A stretch of 41,171 bases of DNA from Syntrophomonadaceae bacterium (GTDB taxonomy: Bacteria > Bacillota > Dethiobacteria > DTU022 > PWGO01). The notes below the pieces were generated by a model. That model was not told the origin of the DNA. It did not search any database and saw nothing but the letters and a program-made list of their open reading frames with translations. This document shows, one piece after another, positions 3,729 through 39,436 of the stretch; position 1 is the first letter of the stretch; the number at the start of each line of letters is the position of its first letter. Location: NCBI GenBank assembly GCA_003550565.1, contig PUKQ01000011.1:1-41171 (forward strand), read 5' to 3'. The translations under genes and the position numbers were made by a program.

Positions 3729-4418
3729 CTGATAGAGCTTAAGGAACTAACCAAGAAGTATGAGGGCAGTAACGTGCCGGCACTTTCTGATATTAATTTG
3801 AATATTGAAAGTGGTGAATTAGTTTTTTTAGTAGGCTTAAGTGGGGTTGGAAAGACTACTCTCATCAAGCTTATTTTTCGAGAAATTTCTCCTACATCCG
3901 GATCCGTCTTTTTTCGGGGAAGAAATATATCTCGCTTCAAGCCTCGAGAATTGCTGGGTTATCGCCGTAATATAGGCATGGTTTTCCAAGATTTTCGATT
4001 AATAAAAAGTAAAACTATTTACGAAAACGTAGCTTTTGCTTTAGAAGTAATAGGTGAATCCCGCCGTGAAATTGACAAAAAAGTTCCTGCAGCTTTAGAT
4101 ATGGTGGACTTATCTCATAAGCTGGATGTTTTTCCCAACCAACTTTCCGGAGGTGAGCAGCAACGGGTGGGTATTGCCCGTGCTATTGTGAAAAACCCCC
4201 AATTAATTTTGGCTGATGAACCTACTGGCAATGTGGACCCGCGCACAGCGCGGGAAATCATGAATCTTTTCGATAAAATTAACCAGGGGGGAACCACTGT
4301 TATTATTGCTACTCATGCTTGGGAACTGGTGAACGAGATGAAGAAGAGAGTTATTTCCTTAGAAGATGGCTTTTTGAAAAAAGATAACAAACAGGAAGAG
4401 GGTTACTGTGTTACTTAA
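3729..4418 (+). CDS. ftsE: Cell division ABC transporter ATP-binding protein FtsE
   Basis: Walker [24 protein letters not shown] signature, DEPTGNVDP; adjacent ftsX. Homology ([23 protein letters not shown]) extends upstream of the track start to a CTG 8 nt after AAGGAGG. Confidence 0.93.
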
Positions 4419-5292
4419 TTTATTGCGCTATAATTTTCGCCAATGCTTTATATCCTTATCACGTAATATTGGCTTGGCTTTAGCATCTATGGGTATTATA
4501 GCCATATCTTTGATCATATTAGGTGCTTTTATCTTAGTGGCTGTAAATATGGAACAGATGGCAAGCGGCTTGGAATCAAGCGTGGAAGTGGCCGTTTTTT
4601 TAGAAGATGATGCTGAGGAAGAAGCCGTGGAAGAGGAATTGAGACATCTGGAAGGTGTGGAAAGTTATACCTTTGTATCGCGCCATGAAGGTTTGGAAGA
4701 TATTAGCCGTGAGCTTGGCGATGAAGATCTTCTAAGTGAGGTAGAAGGTGAACATAATCCCCTTCCAGATGCTTTTCGAGTAAGTGCTTTAGATGCTGAA
4801 ATAGTCCCGGAGCTTGCTGCCCAAATAGAAAATTTTACGGGTGTTGAAAAAACTGATTACGGGGGAGAGCTTTTGAATTGGATGCTCCGCTTTGGGCAGT
4901 GGGTTAACATAATATCCGTAGGGGTGGCTCTAATTTTAATTGCCGCAGCAGTTTTCCTCATTGTAACAACTATCCGATTATCTCTTCTTTCGCGTCAGGA
5001 AGAAGTGGGAATCATGAAGTATCTGGGCGCTAGCAATTGGTTTATCAGGTTTCCGTTTCTTTTGGAAGGAATGATAATCGGATTAGTGGGCACTTTAGTT
5101 TCAGTAATAATTTTAGTATTGGTTTATTATAATCTGGCATCTTACCTGCATGATTTGGAACTGGTTTTCTTTTGGCGCCCGGTTACCGAACCGGCAATAC
5201 TTATGCCAATTTGGGTGGGATTGTTAGTTTTGGGAACATTAATAGGTGGAATGGGAAGCTTATTTTCTTTGCGTAAGTTCTTAAAAGTTTAA
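4408..5292 (+). CDS. ftsX: Cell division protein FtsX
   Basis: Overlaps the ftsE 3' end; four-TM FtsX layout; SRQEEVGIMKYLGASNWFIRFPFLLEG motif. Confidence 0.93.
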   Translation: MLLNLLRYNFRQCFISLSRNIGLALASMGIIAISLIILGAFILVAVNMEQMASGLESSVEVAVFLEDDAEEEAVEEELRHLEGVESYTFVSRHEGLEDISRELGDEDLLSEVEGEHNPLPDAFRVSALDAEIVPELAAQIENFTGVEKTDYGGELLNWMLRFGQWVNIISVGVALILIAAAVFLIVTTIRLSLLSRQEEVGIMKYLGASNWFIRFPFLLEGMIIGLVGTLVSVIILVLVYYNLASYLHDLELVFFWRPVTEPAILMPIWVGLLVLGTLIGGMGSLFSLRKFLKV

Positions 5293-5327
5293 TTTTTTAA
5301 GAACAAAGAAAGAGGAGGTGCAAGAGA

Positions 5328-6749
5328 GTGAACCGTCATCATAAACTAAGACAAGTAGCTTTTATTGCCCTATTAATAGTATTATCAACGGTATTTGTTG
5401 TTGCATCTGTTTCGGGAGAAGACGAGTGGGAAGAAGTAGAAGAAAAGCGGGAAGAAATAGAAGAATTGGAACAAGCTATTATAGAAATGGAATCTTCCGT
5501 TCGAGCTCAAGAAAACCGAGTCCGAGAGTTAGAGGCAAAACTACAACAGGAGGAAGATCGTTTAGAACGGGCAGAAGAAGGGCTGGAAAAATCTCGGCAA
5601 AGGCTGGCAGAGCACAGAGAGTTATTTGGGAAAAGGGTTCGCAGTGTCTATATGAATGGGTCTTTTTCTTTTGTCCAGCTGTTTTTTAAAGCGGATAACT
5701 TTGGGGATATAATAATTTGGACAGAATATTTTATTAGTATATTCCAGCAAGACTCTCAACTGGTGGAAGAATTGAGCGCAGAGAGGGACTATGTTCAAAA
5801 GGCAAAAGAAGAGATAGACGAAGACCGCAAAAAAGTAAAGAAACTTTATGAAGAAGCAAAGGAAGAAAGAGAAAATTTGAAGGTTGCCCGTCAACAAAAA
5901 GAAGAAATGTTGTATGAAGCCCAGGATACACTTAAGAGGCGTTTAGCGCAGATATCAACGCGTGCAGAGGCGCCACCGGTTTACGGGGTGGCCATAGATA
6001 ACCATAGGCGTGCTCGGCCTCAGGAGGGCTTTGCGCAGGCACAGAGGGTTTATGAATACGAAGTTGAAGGAGGGCTTACCCGCTATCTGGCCCTGTATGC
6101 AGAATTTCCCACGGAAGTGGGGCCAGTCCGCAGTGCCCGGCAGCATAGCATTATTTTGGCCTTGGAAAACGGTGTCCATTTCGTCCACAGCGGAAGTTCT
6201 GCTGATAATCTCCGGAGGATGGATAATTTGGGTATTAGCTATACAGATGGTCGTTACCATGACGCTTTTTGGAGGAGCGATGACAGAAGCAGTCCCCATA
6301 ACCTTTATGGTAATATTGCTTCTCTTGGCAAGGTAGCTCCTCCTGATGAATCTGACGTCAGGCCTATATATCCTGAGCAAACGGGTACTACCGCTCATAA
6401 TGTTTCTTTTACCTTAAGCAGTGGAAGAAATGTGAGATATGTGTATGATTCGGAAGAAGAAATATATTGGCGTTATTTGGATGGTTCTCTCCATCGTGAT
6501 GCCGGAGGGAATATTATTAGTGCCCGGAATATTATTATTCAGTATGTAGACTATTATAGAGATGCAAGGAACAGGCCTACAGCTAATCTCATAGGTGAAG
6601 GAAGAATTGACTTTTATTCTAACGGTCAGCATTTTCAGGGAACCTGGAAGAAGGAAAGTAAGGGGTCTCCTACACGCTACTATTATGAAAATGGAGAAGA
6701 GATAGAAATACCTTATGGATCTACATGGATCCAGCTTCAACGCCGATAG
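5328..6749 (+). CDS. Signal peptide + PcsB/EnvC-type coiled coil + DUF3048 (YerB-like) domain protein
   Basis: Long heptad coiled coil with GKRVRSVYMNGSFSFVQLFFKADNFGDIIIWTEYF typical of PcsB/EnvC N-domains; then VYGVAIDNHRRARPQEGFAQAQRVYEYEVEGGLTRYLALYAEFPTEVGPVRSARQHSI typical of DUF3048; strong SD agaggaggtg. Confidence 0.85.
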   Translation: MNRHHKLRQVAFIALLIVLSTVFVVASVSGEDEWEEVEEKREEIEELEQAIIEMESSVRAQENRVRELEAKLQQEEDRLERAEEGLEKSRQRLAEHRELFGKRVRSVYMNGSFSFVQLFFKADNFGDIIIWTEYFISIFQQDSQLVEELSAERDYVQKAKEEIDEDRKKVKKLYEEAKEERENLKVARQQKEEMLYEAQDTLKRRLAQISTRAEAPPVYGVAIDNHRRARPQEGFAQAQRVYEYEVEGGLTRYLALYAEFPTEVGPVRSARQHSIILALENGVHFVHSGSSADNLRRMDNLGISYTDGRYHDAFWRSDDRSSPHNLYGNIASLGKVAPPDESDVRPIYPEQTGTTAHNVSFTLSSGRNVRYVYDSEEEIYWRYLDGSLHRDAGGNIISARNIIIQYVDYYRDARNRPTANLIGEGRIDFYSNGQHFQGTWKKESKGSPTRYYYENGEEIEIPYGSTWIQLQRR

Positions 6750-13918: not shown

Positions 13919-14686
13919 TCATTTGCGTTTTTCAGACATACGGCTGAGCAAGTCCCGCTTTTTTGACCTCTTGGCACTCTCGTAATGTTGCTCGATTTCT
14001 TCAGTAATGGCAGTGGAAAAATCGTGGCTTTCAAGCTCCTGTCGGAATTCGGTTAAAAGACCGTGAAATTTCTTATCAACGCTTTCTTCGAGCATCCTTC
14101 CCGCTTGGATATACTTGTTTGCCAGTTTGAACCTGTCCAGGGTCCCCTCTTTCTTCTGCTGTCTGTATTCTTTAATGGCTTCGTTGAATAAAATCTCCAG
14201 TCTATCCTTGGCTTGTGCTTCCAGGGACCCAAATTTCGGCTTGTATTCTGCTAAAATGTCAACCCTGGCTACAGTGGAATCATCGGGAGGCTTCGTTTCG
14301 TCCGGTTTTTCTTCTGGATCTTCCGTAGGTGGTTTTTCGTGTTTACTATCCGGTTTTTCCTCCGAATTCTCCGCAGATGAGTTTTCGCCTTTGTTGTCCG
14401 GGCTGTCCTGGTGGTCTTCCTCAGGCGTTTTTTTCGGTGAGCTGTCCGAGTTGCCCCAGTCGGCATCCATATCAAGGGTAAGTGGACGATCCGGATCAAG
14501 GGTGAAGGGCTTATCCAGGTCAAAGTGATAGAAAAAATCTTCGCCAAATTGCTCTAAAAGTTGGATTTCAATCTGGCGGTCTTCAGCAAAAAGTGCATTG
14601 TAGAACCACAACCCTGTCCCGGCCAGGATGAGAGCGAAAATAATTAAAATAATCGGCAGTACATTATTGGGTAATTTTTTAGACAT
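13919..14686 (-). CDS. Membrane-anchored protein with D/E/P/K/S-rich linker and C-terminal helical domain, unknown function
   Basis: N-terminal TM LPIILIIFALILAGTGLWFY; repetitive EENSEEKPDSKHEKPPTEDPEEKPDETKPPDD linker; SD before ATG 14686. Confidence 0.7.
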   Translation of the reverse strand: MSKKLPNNVLPIILIIFALILAGTGLWFYNALFAEDRQIEIQLLEQFGEDFFYHFDLDKPFTLDPDRPLTLDMDADWGNSDSSPKKTPEEDHQDSPDNKGENSSAENSEEKPDSKHEKPPTEDPEEKPDETKPPDDSTVARVDILAEYKPKFGSLEAQAKDRLEILFNEAIKEYRQQKKEGTLDRFKLANKYIQAGRMLEESVDKKFHGLLTEFRQELESHDFSTAITEEIEQHYESAKRSKKRDLLSRMSEKRK

Positions 14687-14778
14687 TTTAACCACCCTTT
14701 TAAGGTAGACCTCAAGGACTTGATTGATAAAAATTAGCCTGCTTCTTTTATTTAATTCGTATGCGTCGGAAGGAACCC

Positions 14779-16569
14779 TTAATCTTTCTCTAAGACAGTG
14801 TCGGAAACAGCAGCGGGTCCTCCCAGGATATAAAGCAGGGTTTCACTGTCTGCGATGCTGTGGTAGTATTCATCTACAACTTCCGGTAATTGATCTTTTT
14901 GCGCATAGAGAACTGGGGCTTTTAGAATCGCCCCAAGGTAGCCGCCGGACAGGGCGTCAACCAGGGTCAGGCCGTTGCCTAATAGCACATATTGGGGATC
15001 TGGATCACTGAAAAATCTCTGGGCAACGTTTACGCTGGTGTCAAATCGATTTGCTCCCCGGAGCCTCTCCACTTTGCCGTCAATCAACTGTTCCAAGTCA
15101 GTCTCTACGTCTTCGCTGACCACCGTGCTACCGCCAATTATAATCAATTCATCGATGCCCAATTCGTTAATAGCTTCCTTTGTTACTTCCGGAATGCTGT
15201 CTTCTGCAACCAGCAAAATCGGGTAACTGCGCCCGGACGCAACCGGCCCTGCTACTAGTGAATCAGCCATGGCCGTACCGCTGACGATAAAAGCCGTAGT
15301 GGGGAAATTGTTTCCTAGCCTATCTGCTGTTGATTGCGCCATTTTGGCGGCCGTACTGTAGCGATCATCTCCCGAAATCCTTCTGACCGTGAGGCCCATA
15401 TCCTCCAAATCTTTTTTTACCTTATTAGAGATAGCCGATGTTCCACCCAGGAGCTTTACTTTTGTCACTTCCAGAACTAAAAGGGCTTCAGCGGTGGCTT
15501 CGGATAAAACATCGGATCCGGTTAGCAGAAGTGGCGCTTCCAGAGCGCCGGCCAGCGCGCTGCTGCCAAGCCCGTCGACGAAAACGTCGCCTCGAGCCAG
15601 CAGCGCCGTATCTGCTCCTTCGGGATAAGCATACGACGCAATATGCGCCGACGTTTCGAAGCGGCTTTCTCCGGCAAGGCGGATCCATGGTAATTTTAAG
15701 CCCAGATCAGCAAGAATTCTGGTGGTCTCACTCTGATCCAGGTAGTAGTAACCCGGCATGGGGTCTATTTCATATTCGCCGGGCAAAACAAACGCAGGGA
15801 TTTTTTCAGGGTCCTGATCGTACAAGATATTGCCCACTTCAGCTACATCCCAATCACTCATGCTGGTAAACAAGCTTGTCCCCAACATCTCGTAATAAAT
15901 ATCATATAATTCTTCTTCAGGCAGAGTTTTTAGCTGATGCATAAGAGCATTGAGCATGCGCTGGTTTCGACGCACGCGGTCGCCATCAGAGTGGTCTGAA
16001 CCTTCTTCGGGAACTCGGGGCAAGCGATGCGTAACGTAAGTATGGGCCTGGTCACCGTCCAGCCGATTTAAACCGTAAGGCAGGTCGGTAACTTCGGCTA
16101 GCCCCTCACATACATATATTTCTACTCCCCCGATAAGTTCCACAAATTCGGAGAAGCCTTCCTCTTTGAGGGTAATATAATGGTGCAGGGGAATACCTAA
16201 CAGCTCTTCTACTGTTTTCTTTGTAAATAGACCTGCTTCGTTATAATCATAATCGTTGTTTGTTAAACCATAATGATGGGCAAAAGCCAAATGATATTCA
16301 TCGGGTTCGGATGACCAGGTTTGAAAATCAACGTAGGTGCTTCTCGAAACAGAAATAACCGAACTTTCATAGGTGGTATTATCGAAAGAAAAGATCATCA
16401 CGGTATCGGCCATCGCCCTACCTTCATCCACCCCCAAAAGCAGGATATTTGTGTGCGAATCGCTGTCGGACGAGGCAGCAGTATGCTCGTGACTGTTGGA
16501 GCCGACTATCAGGAAAAGAGCTGCCAAAAGAAAGAGCAGCAGCACCGAAAGCGAGTTTTTTAGACCCAT
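14779..16569 (-). CDS. LytR-CpsA-Psr (LCP) domain protein fused to C-terminal cell wall binding repeat 2 (CWB2) repeats
   Basis: NILLLGVDEGRAMADTVMIFSFD...VSRSTYVDF...GGVEIYVCEGLAEVTDLPYGLNRLDGDQAHTYVTHRLPRVPEEGSDHSDGDRVRRNQRML = LCP; RLAGESRFETSAHIASYAYPEGADTALLARGDVFVDGLGSSALAGALEAPLLLT etc. = CWB2. SD agaagggaga before ATG 16569. Confidence 0.9.
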   Translation of the reverse strand: MGLKNSLSVLLLFLLAALFLIVGSNSHEHTAASSDSDSHTNILLLGVDEGRAMADTVMIFSFDNTTYESSVISVSRSTYVDFQTWSSEPDEYHLAFAHHYGLTNNDYDYNEAGLFTKKTVEELLGIPLHHYITLKEEGFSEFVELIGGVEIYVCEGLAEVTDLPYGLNRLDGDQAHTYVTHRLPRVPEEGSDHSDGDRVRRNQRMLNALMHQLKTLPEEELYDIYYEMLGTSLFTSMSDWDVAEVGNILYDQDPEKIPAFVLPGEYEIDPMPGYYYLDQSETTRILADLGLKLPWIRLAGESRFETSAHIASYAYPEGADTALLARGDVFVDGLGSSALAGALEAPLLLTGSDVLSEATAEALLVLEVTKVKLLGGTSAISNKVKKDLEDMGLTVRRISGDDRYSTAAKMAQSTADRLGNNFPTTAFIVSGTAMADSLVAGPVASGRSYPILLVAEDSIPEVTKEAINELGIDELIIIGGSTVVSEDVETDLEQLIDGKVERLRGANRFDTSVNVAQRFFSDPDPQYVLLGNGLTLVDALSGGYLGAILKAPVLYAQKDQLPEVVDEYYHSIADSETLLYILGGPAAVSDTVLEKD

Positions 16570-16686
16570 TATTATTTCTCCCTTCTTGCTTCTAAGTGAT
16601 TTTTCAATCTTATTATATCCTCCCAAACCCTCACCCTCTGATATTCTCAGCATTCGATTTGGGAAAATATGTTTTTCTTGTGAAAA

Positions 16687-16732
16687 AAGGCTTAACTGTT
16701 ATTTTTTTGATATGTTAAGCCTTTTTATTTCG
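16687..16732. terminator. Bidirectional hairpin terminator between the CWB2 gene and LCP gene
   Basis: AAGGCTTAAC...GTTAAGCCTT stem flanked by A/T runs. Confidence 0.8.
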
Positions 16733-16800: not shown

Positions 16801-17829
16801 TTAAGGGCTCTTATCAGGATGCAAGCCTATGTAGATAGCTTCCTCGCAATCTTCACTCACGGCAGCCGTTCCACCCAAGATGTAAGCCATGGTATCTTGG
16901 GTAACAATGGTATAAAAGTAATTAAGTGCAACGGAATCGTCGGTGCGGCCGTGGCAGTATAGAATGGGCGCATCCAACATTCCTCCCAGGTAGCTGCCCG
17001 CCATGGCATCAACTAGGTTTTCATCTAAACCGCCGGCAAATATCACCGTCTCTGGCGGATGAAAGTACTCTTTGGCGACTTCGACGCTGGTTTCAAGGCG
17101 GTTAGCGCCGTAAACACGTCTGGTATCGGGAAGCTTATCTTCGACCTCGTCACTGACCACGGCGGGTCCGCCGATAATTGTAGTTTTGGTAAGTTCCAGT
17201 TCATTCATCACTTCATCGGTTTCTTCAGGTACCCCGTCCGGGCGTACCAGCAGGATAGGTTTTCCACTCGCGGATGCATAGGAACCGATCGTAAGAGCGT
17301 CAGGAATAACAATGCCGCTGACAATAAAAGCTTCATCGCCAAAGTCCTCGTCGAGTTCATCGGCCACCCCCCGGGCAATTTCTGCCGCTGTTTCAAAACG
17401 ATTTTCGCCCTCGTACCTCCTTACATCCATTTCAAAATCTTCATCCAGCCTCTCAAACACCGGTTGCGAGACAGCGGCTTCCCCACCGAGAATAACCGCG
17501 TTTGCTGCGCCGAGCTCAGCGATTGCTTCTTGCGTTCTTCCAGGCAGGTTTTCAGGCATAGTCAGCAGTATGGGCGCATCAAGTGCTCCGGCCAGGGTGC
17601 TTCCGGCCAGGGCATCAAACAGCACATCGCCACGCGCAATAATTACCGTATCAGCCTGATCATATGCATAAAGTGAAATTACTTTGGCCGTTTCAAAGCG
17701 GTCTTCTCCGTATAGGCGGGTTAGCCTATCATAAACATCATTAGCCATGGCAGTCCCGATAAAAGCGGAAATAATAATGGCCATTACCGCCAGGATCAAT
17801 AAAAACCGAAAAATTATTTTTCTCTTCAA
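16801..17829 (-). CDS. Secreted cell wall binding repeat 2 (CWB2) protein
   Basis: Three CWB2-like repeats (RLYGEDRFETAKVISLYAYDQADTVIIARGD; RYEGENRFETAAEIARGVADEL; RVYGANRLETSVEVAKEYF); N-terminal hydrophobic signal; SD GGAGGG before TTG 17829. Confidence 0.87.
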   Translation of the reverse strand: MKRKIIFRFLLILAVMAIIISAFIGTAMANDVYDRLTRLYGEDRFETAKVISLYAYDQADTVIIARGDVLFDALAGSTLAGALDAPILLTMPENLPGRTQEAIAELGAANAVILGGEAAVSQPVFERLDEDFEMDVRRYEGENRFETAAEIARGVADELDEDFGDEAFIVSGIVIPDALTIGSYASASGKPILLVRPDGVPEETDEVMNELELTKTTIIGGPAVVSDEVEDKLPDTRRVYGANRLETSVEVAKEYFHPPETVIFAGGLDENLVDAMAGSYLGGMLDAPILYCHGRTDDSVALNYFYTIVTQDTMAYILGGTAAVSEDCEEAIYIGLHPDKSP

Positions 17830-37076: not shown

Positions 37077-37171
37077 GGAGAGATGGCTGAGTGGTCGAAG
37101 GCGCTCGCCTGGAAAGCGAGTAGGCGGGGCAAAACCTCGCCTCGAGGGTTCGAATCCCTCTCTCTCCGCCA
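37077..37171 (+). tRNA. tRNA-Ser(GGA)
   Basis: GGAGAGA acceptor, anticodon loop ctGGAaa, long variable arm, encoded CCA. Confidence 0.96.
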
Positions 37172-37183
37172 TTTTTAATTTTA

Positions 37184-37452
37184 GGCCGTGCTAGACGGGA
37201 AGATAGCGGTGTCCTGAACCCGCAATCCGCTACAGCGGGGTTGAATTCCTGCCCGCGGCCTTTTAGTTCTCAGGGCTGCTTCAAGAAAGTGGTGAAGAAA
37301 GTTTGGTCCTGTGCGGCGCAACCTCATGAACCCCGTCAGATCCGGGAGGAAGCAGCGGTAAGTGAGTAGTTGCGGGTGCCACGGGGTTGCCGAACCGGAG
37401 CTAACTGCTTGAATTCCGCCTGAGAACGAAGGTCAACGGTAGGTGCACGGCC
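37184..37452 (+). ncRNA. ffs: Signal recognition particle RNA (large, Bacillus/Clostridia type)
   Basis: GGCCGTGC...GCACGGCC closing pair; TAGCGGTGTCCTGAACCCGCAATCCGCTA Alu-domain-like segment; core GTCAGATCCGGGAGGAAGCAGCGGTAA. Confidence 0.95.
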
Positions 37453-37534
37453 TAATTTATTTAATTTTGTTCCTCAAGTATTAATGATCATTCAGGGAAA
37501 AAGGTAATAAAGATCTTAGGAAGGAGATAAAAGG

Positions 37535-39436
37535 TTGTCTTACCAGAGTTTATACCGCAGATGGCGGCCAATGCAGTTTAGTGAAGTTGTTGGACAGGAA
37601 CATATTACCAGAACCTTGCAAAATGCCATAGCCCGCCATAATGTTTCCCATGCTTATCTTTTTTGTGGCCCTCGTGGAACAGGTAAAACTACCGTGGCCA
37701 AAATCTTGGCCCGGGCGGCAAATTGTAATAATTTAACAATGGCGGAGCCATGTGGAGAATGTGATTCTTGCCAGCAGATTCTAACCGGTTCATCTATGGA
37801 TGTTTTTGAACTTGATGCTGCTTCTAACCGTGGTATAGATGAAGTACGGGATTTAAGGGAAAGAACGCGCTATGCACCCAGTGAAGGACAAAATAATGTA
37901 TATATAATTGATGAAGTACATATGCTTACTCAGGAAGCTTTTAATGCCTTATTGAAAACATTAGAAGAACCTCCTTCAGGAGTTCTTTTTATACTTGCCA
38001 CTACTGAGCCCTACAAATTGCCATCTACTGTTGTTTCCCGCTGTCAACGGCTAGATTTTCGCCTTTTAACTGCCTCAGAAGTAAAAGAGAGGCTTAAAGA
38101 AATTGCATCTGTAGAAGAATGGAATTATGAAGAAGAGGCAATTGCGTTGATAGCCCAGCTTTCTGAAGGCGCTATTCGTGACGCACTGGGCTTATTGGAG
38201 CAGGCGTGTGCTTTTGGCGAAGGTCATGTTACTGCTGAAATGGTGTACACTCTTGCCGGATTAGCTAGAGAAGAAACAGTTAAGCAAATGGTAGAAGCAT
38301 TAGCTGAGGAAGATATTGTGAAAGGGCTGAAAGTAATTCGCGATGTAACTTTTGGCGGAAAAGATTTATACTTATTCCTAAAAGAACAGATTTTGTTTCT
38401 TAAACAGTTACTGGTAGCGCAGGCGGCAGGCCCGGATGTAATTGAGGAGCAAAGATACCGAGAATCTGCTCTGGAATATAAAGATAGATTCCATCGCAAT
38501 TCGCTCCTGGAAATGATTTCTATTCTTCACCAGGCAAGTGGGGAGATACGTTTTACCGAGCATGCTCATTTTATATTGGAAATAGCCTTTTTAAATTTAC
38601 TAAGAGCCGCTAAAGCTGCTTCAGATGGTGTATCGGAAAGTTTAGAGGAAAAAGCAGAGAAGATAGAAGACAGCCGGGCATTTAAAAAAGAAAGAAAAGA
38701 TAATGGTGATCTTTCAAGTTCAGAACAAACAGGCCATGAAGATCATCAAAATTTAGGTGAAAGGAAAGAAAGTAATTTTTACGAGGATGATGATCCTCCC
38801 GGGGAAGAGGTTTCCAATAATGAGGATGAGGCTGTTTCATCTACTGAGCAAGGTGAACCTGCTACAACGGAAAAAATGTGGGCTCTTATTTTAGAATCTT
38901 TTCAAAAAGATCAAAGTACTCTTGCTTTACTTCAATCATTACGGGTAAAAAAAATGGAGAACAACATTTTTTATGTGAGCTGTGAGCAAAATAAATATCA
39001 TTTTATAAAAAAAATGTTTGCTGATTCAAGTAAGCGCAGGTATATTGAAAAAGAGGCCAGTGAAGTAGCCGGAAAAGACATTCGCCTAATGCTGGTGTCA
39101 TCAGATGGGCAGGAAAATGATAATTCTGAATTGAATAGTGAATCAGGGAAGGTTCAATTAGAGAAAAATGTAGAGGAATCCAATGCAGAAAAACCTCATC
39201 TGGAAAAAACATTACAAGAAGATAATCAAAGTAAAGAAGTGGGTGAGCCGGAAGAAAACAGCTTGCCTTACGATGATCTTTTAGAGGGACAATCCGAGCA
39301 ACTTGAGACAAAGGACGAAGATGTGAACAATAAAAATGACAATGAATCGTCTCGAAATTTCCAACATGATGAAGTTATTATAAAAGAGGCTTTAAGATTG
39401 TTTGAGGGCAGTGAAATAATTGAAAATGAGAATTAA
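37535..39436 (+). CDS. dnaX: DNA polymerase III subunit gamma/tau
   Basis: SYQSLYRRWRPMQFSEVVGQEHI; GPRGTGKTTVAKILA; four-Cys zinc module; TTG start after aaggagat. Confidence 0.97.
   Translation: MSYQSLYRRWRPMQFSEVVGQEHITRTLQNAIARHNVSHAYLFCGPRGTGKTTVAKILARAANCNNLTMAEPCGECDSCQQILTGSSMDVFELDAASNRGIDEVRDLRERTRYAPSEGQNNVYIIDEVHMLTQEAFNALLKTLEEPPSGVLFILATTEPYKLPSTVVSRCQRLDFRLLTASEVKERLKEIASVEEWNYEEEAIALIAQLSEGAIRDALGLLEQACAFGEGHVTAEMVYTLAGLAREETVKQMVEALAEEDIVKGLKVIRDVTFGGKDLYLFLKEQILFLKQLLVAQAAGPDVIEEQRYRESALEYKDRFHRNSLLEMISILHQASGEIRFTEHAHFILEIAFLNLLRAAKAASDGVSESLEEKAEKIEDSRAFKKERKDNGDLSSSEQTGHEDHQNLGERKESNFYEDDDPPGEEVSNNEDEAVSSTEQGEPATTEKMWALILESFQKDQSTLALLQSLRVKKMENNIFYVSCEQNKYHFIKKMFADSSKRRYIEKEASEVAGKDIRLMLVSSDGQENDNSELNSESGKVQLEKNVEESNAEKPHLEKTLQEDNQSKEVGEPEENSLPYDDLLEGQSEQLETKDEDVNNKNDNESSRNFQHDEVIIKEALRLFEGSEIIENEN

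Follow-up and report, generated by a model that had tools for sequence, protein, structure and literature searches.

To our knowledge, C. difficile is the only bacterium using CWB2 modules in which the polymer handled by LCP enzymes has been established. There, LcpA and LcpB anchor PSII to peptidoglycan (PMC10100865), CWB2 modules need PSII (PMC4973711), and the LCP and CWB2 parts are separate proteins, with the LCP genes lying in the polymer locus (PMC5065235). Unlike that arrangement, a gene in the window analysed here (the whole 41,171-nucleotide stretch of contig PUKQ01000011.1 of a Syntrophomonadaceae bacterium) was read in a first-pass annotation as an LCP phosphotransferase domain joined to CWB2 repeats in one chain. 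The locus raises the question of whether such a chain is a working glycopolymer transferase with a hold on the wall, and where its two halves came from.

Both domains of the fusion are real, with matches far beyond chance. The open frame runs uninterrupted on the minus strand over 14779–16653 (624 amino acids, here P0001). A ribosome-binding site (AAGGGAG) lies upstream of the ATG at 16569 and none precedes the ATG at 16653, so 16569 is the likely start and the gene limits of the first-pass annotation hold. The parts of the gene are as follows.

14779–16569, minus strand: LCP-CWB2 fusion protein gene, its frame open to the ATG at 16653
16498–16554, minus strand: one hydrophobic segment, SLSVLLLFLLAALFLIVGS, preceded by an n-region of five residues; either a signal peptide or a signal anchor
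15694–16473, minus strand: LCP domain, P0001 residues 61–320 (Pfam match 82–242), with unfused relatives ending at 320
14794–15684, minus strand: three CWB2 repeats, P0001 residues ~324–620

The LCP family PF03816 matches P0001 residues 82–242 with E = 1.1e-19 (71.5 bits against a curated cut-off of 24.6), and the CWB2 family PF04122 matches three stretches with E = 1.9e-50 (169.8 bits, above cut-off). An AlphaFold2 model of the whole chain, built from 8 sequences and of modest confidence (pLDDT 70, pTM 0.50), was compared with the PDB using Foldseek: its N-terminal half resembles TagT, Cps2A and S. aureus LcpA (E from 1e-12 to 1e-11, TMt to 0.69) and also matches A. oris LcpA, and its C-terminal half resembles C. 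difficile Cwp6, Cwp8 and SlpA/SlpH (E to 1e-22). Pfam, fold prediction and PDB comparison are thus in agreement on an LCP domain fused to CWB2 repeats. The LCP fold extends in full to residue 320, and the junction with the CWB2 part is clean.

The origin of this architecture is best seen from the closest LCP proteins, which share 40–49% identity over the LCP domain and are found at ten or so loci of a family (f3) of the same order. These unfused proteins (among them L064–L068, L080, L090, L093 and L094) carry no CWB2, and their open frames of 321–387 amino acids end exactly at the position of fusion residue 320, where CWB2 begins. In the tree, the fusion and nine unfused LCPs form one clade (support 100/98), with the fusion sister to the other nine. 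Downstream of the LCP gene, nearly all other clade loci checked share with the window a gene that we call orfX.

13919–14695, minus strand: orfX, membrane-anchored three-helix protein with no Pfam family, conserved downstream partner of the LCP subfamily
L065:6547–7146, L066:9675–10253, L067:152–718 and L080:965–1555: orfX relatives at loci of unfused LCPs

The orfX of the window is 50% identical to its relatives over 118 residues, and the lone clade locus without orfX (L084/L068) has only ~570 bases left on its contig. The LCP and orfX frames overlap by ~4 bases in most relatives and stand 83 bases apart in the window. Members of the orfX family occur in 17 of the 98 genomes of the class, and a fold search against the PDB gave no significant match. 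The fusion thus has its origin in an LCP-orfX unit; most simply, a CWB2-coding piece became attached to the 3' end of the LCP gene within that existing unit. CWB2 is present in 5 of the 71 genomes of the order and, at the threshold used, in none of those holding the unfused clade; because the genomes of the unfused relatives mostly lack CWB2, the LCP subfamily was not built around CWB2 and the pairing is secondary.

Several further features of these loci can be recorded. The linker of the window's orfX (14300–14401) contains a 48-bp tandem repeat that encodes an acidic, proline-rich insert absent from the relatives. Paralogues of orfX situated away from the LCP gene (L284, L285, L287, L288 and L291) have an N-terminal Cys-rich, zinc-ribbon-like stretch and adjoin a conserved open reading frame of 171–173 amino acids, and at some orfX-paralogue loci a divergent neighbour shows, by eye, a motif HGxGYxTYYA like that of M23-type peptidases close to its end. 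A gene for a small secreted protein with a Big_2 (Ig-like) domain lies upstream of several unfused LCP genes, where the window has a CWB2-only gene. The C-terminus of these Big_2 proteins resembles a sorting signal, with PPTGG or a similar motif followed by a hydrophobic helix and basic residues.

L064:1495–2049, L065:4878–5390, L066:7969–8478 and L067:1954–2970: Big_2 proteins upstream of unfused LCPs

The N-terminus and the active site of the fusion depart from those of its relatives. The unfused LCPs examined have an Arg-rich cytoplasmic tail and a membrane anchor; in the fusion this tail is reduced to MGLKN, followed by one hydrophobic stretch of 18–19 residues that could serve as either a signal peptide or an anchor. 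A precedent for such an N-terminus is C. difficile LcpA, which has a signal peptide only (PMC10100865). For the active site, the LCP half was aligned with TagT, 3QFI and 122 other LCP domains (124 others in all), which locates the two departures listed here.

16339–16344, minus strand: R104-S105 in place of the otherwise invariant Arg-Asp pair (TagT R118-D119), by alignment
16024–16032, minus strand: T208-H-R210, with TagT R217 changed to Thr and R219 kept, by alignment

The arginines essential in TagT and the Mg-binding aspartates are in place. With B. subtilis TagT, the wall-teichoic-acid ligase (PDB 6MPS/6UF5), the fusion shares the LCP fold, the counterparts of the Mg-binding D82 and D97 (P0001 D76 and D83), those of R118 and R219 (R104 and R210), and an Arg at the R227 position in either register of a local alignment ambiguity of two residues (R226 or R228). 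Each of the TagT substitutions R118A, R219A and R227A abolishes transfer (PMC11337229). The fusion differs from TagT in its C-terminal CWB2 triplet and short N-terminus, and in two active-site positions at which the unfused relatives, unlike the fusion, keep the RD pair and R217. The Asp that follows R118 (TagT D119) is Ser105 in the fusion and Asp in 124 of 124 other LCPs compared, and a single sequencing error does not explain the replacement, because a change from an Asp codon (GAC or GAT) to AGC needs at least two base changes. TagT R217 corresponds to Thr208, a position occupied by Arg in 111 of the 124 others. We found no report that the counterpart of D119 or R217 is required for LCP activity. 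As judged from the alignment, the active site is unusual and activity may have been lost.

The strongest alternative to a working enzyme is therefore a degenerate LCP domain, its transferase activity lost or much reduced, in a structural wall protein with two polymer-binding parts. The loss of an Asp that none of the 124 others lacks, together with that of R217, points in this direction, as do the long branch on which the fusion sits beside the unfused clade and a score of 57 bits with the NCBIfam LCP model TIGR00350, just below its cut-off of 62.3, which marks the LCP half as divergent. The genome also has two further LCP genes, both more canonical and without CWB2, so that the fusion is the only one of three to carry it. 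Retention of the three Arg essential in TagT and of both Mg-binding Asp in an intact frame argues against decay, and R217 is replaced in 13 of the 124 other LCPs as well. Weighing these points, we regard degeneration as a serious but distinctly less probable reading, and favour a wall-tethered transferase over it.

The CWB2 half has its kin within the same genome, which contains 54 CWB2 matches in roughly 17–20 proteins. In the tree, its array groups with four other arrays of the genome with support of 100/100: that of the CWB2-only gene next door, and those of one LRR, one InlB-repeat and one cohesin-like protein. Among the genome's other CWB2 proteins, the partner parts are glucosaminidase, LRR, beta-helix or cohesin, and since CWB2 is joined to so many unrelated parts it appears to act as a general wall-retention tag in this organism. 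The fold and the number of repeats are those of the C. difficile Cwp6, Cwp8 and SlpA modules (PDB 5J72, 5J6Q and 7ACY), and anchoring in C. difficile needs three CWB2 repeats (PMC4973711); the C. difficile modules are partnered with amidase or S-layer parts and that of the fusion with an LCP domain. The motif P[ILV][ILV][LV], described for each CWB2 repeat (PMC4973711), appears in the fusion as PLLL, PILL and PVLY, a strict match in two of three repeats; the third differs from the C. difficile modules in its Tyr, a form that recurs in related arrays of this genome. The adjacent gene was considered as donor of the fusion's CWB2 part and set aside: it ranks best by bit score and second by identity, with the order inside the group of five arrays unsettled in the tree. 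A match of the LCP tail in the LRR protein on contig C44 was likewise discarded as a chance extension, its alignment starting at residue 309, just before the CWB2 array.

The first-pass annotation had proposed the gene next door as a candidate client of the fusion. This gene and the sequence between the two are described here.

16801–17829, minus strand: CWB2-only secreted protein (signal peptide and three repeats), sharing 46% identity with the fusion's CWB2 part
16683–16728 (approximate): hairpin of 12 bp with flanking runs of A and T, terminator-like on both strands, separating the two CWB2 genes

The neighbour starts at a TTG with a GGAGGG ribosome-binding site, and the hairpin (z of -5.1 on the minus, coding, strand and -7.0 on the plus strand) is terminator-like, so the fusion and its neighbour are probably transcribed apart. 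Separated in this way, composed of CWB2 only and one of about 17–20 CWB2 proteins in the genome, the neighbour is a paralogue more than an obvious client, and the proposal is not supported in that form. These observations bear on a second alternative, in which the fusion glycosylates CWB2 surface proteins, be it this neighbour or its own CWB2 part. A. oris LcpA glycosylates the genetically linked surface protein GspA (PMC6381275), a precedent in that an LCP enzyme is linked to a surface-protein gene as in the fusion, although it is neither fused to its target nor associated with CWB2; the CWB2-only gene moreover adjoins the fusion on the same strand. Given the intervening hairpin, the lack of an identified acceptor motif and LCP relatives that have no CWB2 neighbour, we consider protein modification improbable.

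The architecture is not a common one in the genome collections searched. An LCP-domain query of the 71 genomes of the order gave no other LCP-CWB2 fusion, and neither did a query of LCP plus one CWB2 repeat in a 399-genome sample of the phylum, for which the best 4 candidates of a first look were scored in CWB2-rich genomes. None was found among the longest LCP open reading frames (mostly above 480 amino acids) of 28 genomes picked for CWB2-type hits (27 with CWB2, and G241 without) and of a few other genomes, and a class-level LCP query gave no further fusion among the matches listed. Plasmid records held no place covering both the LCP and the CWB2 parts, and a full-text literature search did not find the architecture. 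The parts of the fusion are thus known ones in a new combination, which is seen in a single metagenome-assembled genome (MAG) of one uncultured species.

Separate LCP and CWB2 genes do lie close together more often than expected. Across the 27 CWB2-bearing genomes, 12 of 65 LCP open reading frames have a CWB2 open reading frame no more than 5 kb away, where CWB2 density predicts 2.45; some of the genomes are congeneric, so that not every event is independent. Clustering of wall genes may have causes other than a tie between LCP and CWB2. The excess in CWB2-bearing Bacillota supports a link. In one distant member of the Bacillota (G479), two LCP genes on different contigs (C40 and C26; L214 and L220) each start 177 bp after a same-strand CWB2 gene. 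The excess tells against a third alternative, in which the CWB2 part was gained by chance recombination and the LCP domain attaches another polymer, with no functional tie between the halves. Such a passive acquisition would fit the attachment of CWB2 to many unrelated parts in this genome and an LCP subfamily that resides mostly in genomes without CWB2. The co-localization above chance and the C. difficile case, in which the LCP product is the CWB2 ligand (PMC10100865, PMC4973711), make it, in our view, equally improbable.

The window makes up the whole of contig C223. The MAG to which this contig belongs comprises 2.65 Mb in 279 contigs, with an estimated completeness of 96.5% and contamination of 6.4%. 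Of all genomes searched, the two of the same family have the dnaX proteins nearest to that of the window (59% and 58%), and the contig is for this reason regarded as native to the genome. A chimeric join of two genes at CWB2 repeats is a very remote prospect: the MAG is fragmented and contaminated, has 54 CWB2 matches and is the only genome with the fusion, but a misjoin by repeat is unlikely, since none of the other complete arrays compared is more than 48% identical to that of the fusion. The reading frame also continues unbroken through the junction, and apart from the CWB2 segment the gene order is the conserved one, with the orfX partner expected for this LCP downstream.

Besides the fusion, the window contains ftsE, ftsX, GH18 and GH5 hydrolases, penicillin amidase and metabolic genes, and no polymer-biosynthesis genes among the open reading frames scanned. 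Two other segments are of separate interest.

3774–6749, plus strand: ftsE and ftsX, then a protein with a PcsB-type coiled coil fused to DUF3048 in place of a known hydrolase domain
37077–39436, plus strand: tRNA gene, large bacterial SRP RNA and dnaX in a row

The coiled-coil protein of the first may be an FtsX partner whose output differs; the second is an ordinary Bacillota arrangement. The named LCP relatives come from MAGs labelled Syntrophomonadaceae or Bacillota with the isolate codes CSSed and B1Sed, which we take to resemble those of hypersaline soda-lake sediment studies and which suggest a soda-lake origin of the bacterium.

Taken together, the evidence leads us to favour, at roughly even odds, a divergent, wall-tethered LCP glycopolymer transferase whose gene has captured a CWB2 triplet at its 3' end. 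In this model, the chain would be exported via its N-terminal hydrophobic segment, and the LCP domain would bind an undecaprenyl-pyrophosphate-linked polymer with Mg2+ and transfer the polymer to a wall acceptor. The CWB2 array would hold the enzyme beside the polymer-bearing wall, instead of by membrane anchorage only, and retention would be through the anionic polymer that CWB2 modules bind. We infer the catalytic activity, the identity of the polymer and that it is the same one to which the CWB2 part binds. Counted against the transferase reading are Ser105, Thr208, the reduced N-terminal tail, a window free of polymer genes and the occurrence in one MAG only; in addition, an enzyme tethered in the wall could have difficulty in reaching the LCP substrate, which is located in the membrane. 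The first-pass suggestion that the enzyme builds or binds the polymer anchoring CWB2 surface proteins accordingly stands as plausible and partly supported: the proximity of LCP and CWB2 genes speaks for it, and the window without polymer genes, the hairpin separating the putative client, the lost active-site Asp and an LCP subfamily that did not evolve to serve CWB2 proteins speak against it.

A narrower version of the wall-tethered transferase, in which the LCP enzyme carries a binding module for the very polymer that it attaches, is tentative and somewhat less probable than degeneration. If this self-anchoring were true, existing polymer would recruit more ligase, resulting in positive feedback or processive decoration, and LCP activity would have moved from the membrane towards the wall in this lineage. 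Like C. difficile, the host of the fusion has an LCP in an organism with CWB2 anchoring, and one chain with an attaching enzyme and a polymer-binding module would tie both activities together and allow a compact test of the idea that, outside C. difficile too, the CWB2 ligand is an LCP product. For the LCP family more broadly, the fusion indicates that a wall-binding domain can be added to the C-terminus of an LCP protein, and it provides a case of an LCP active site in which an otherwise invariant Asp has been replaced.
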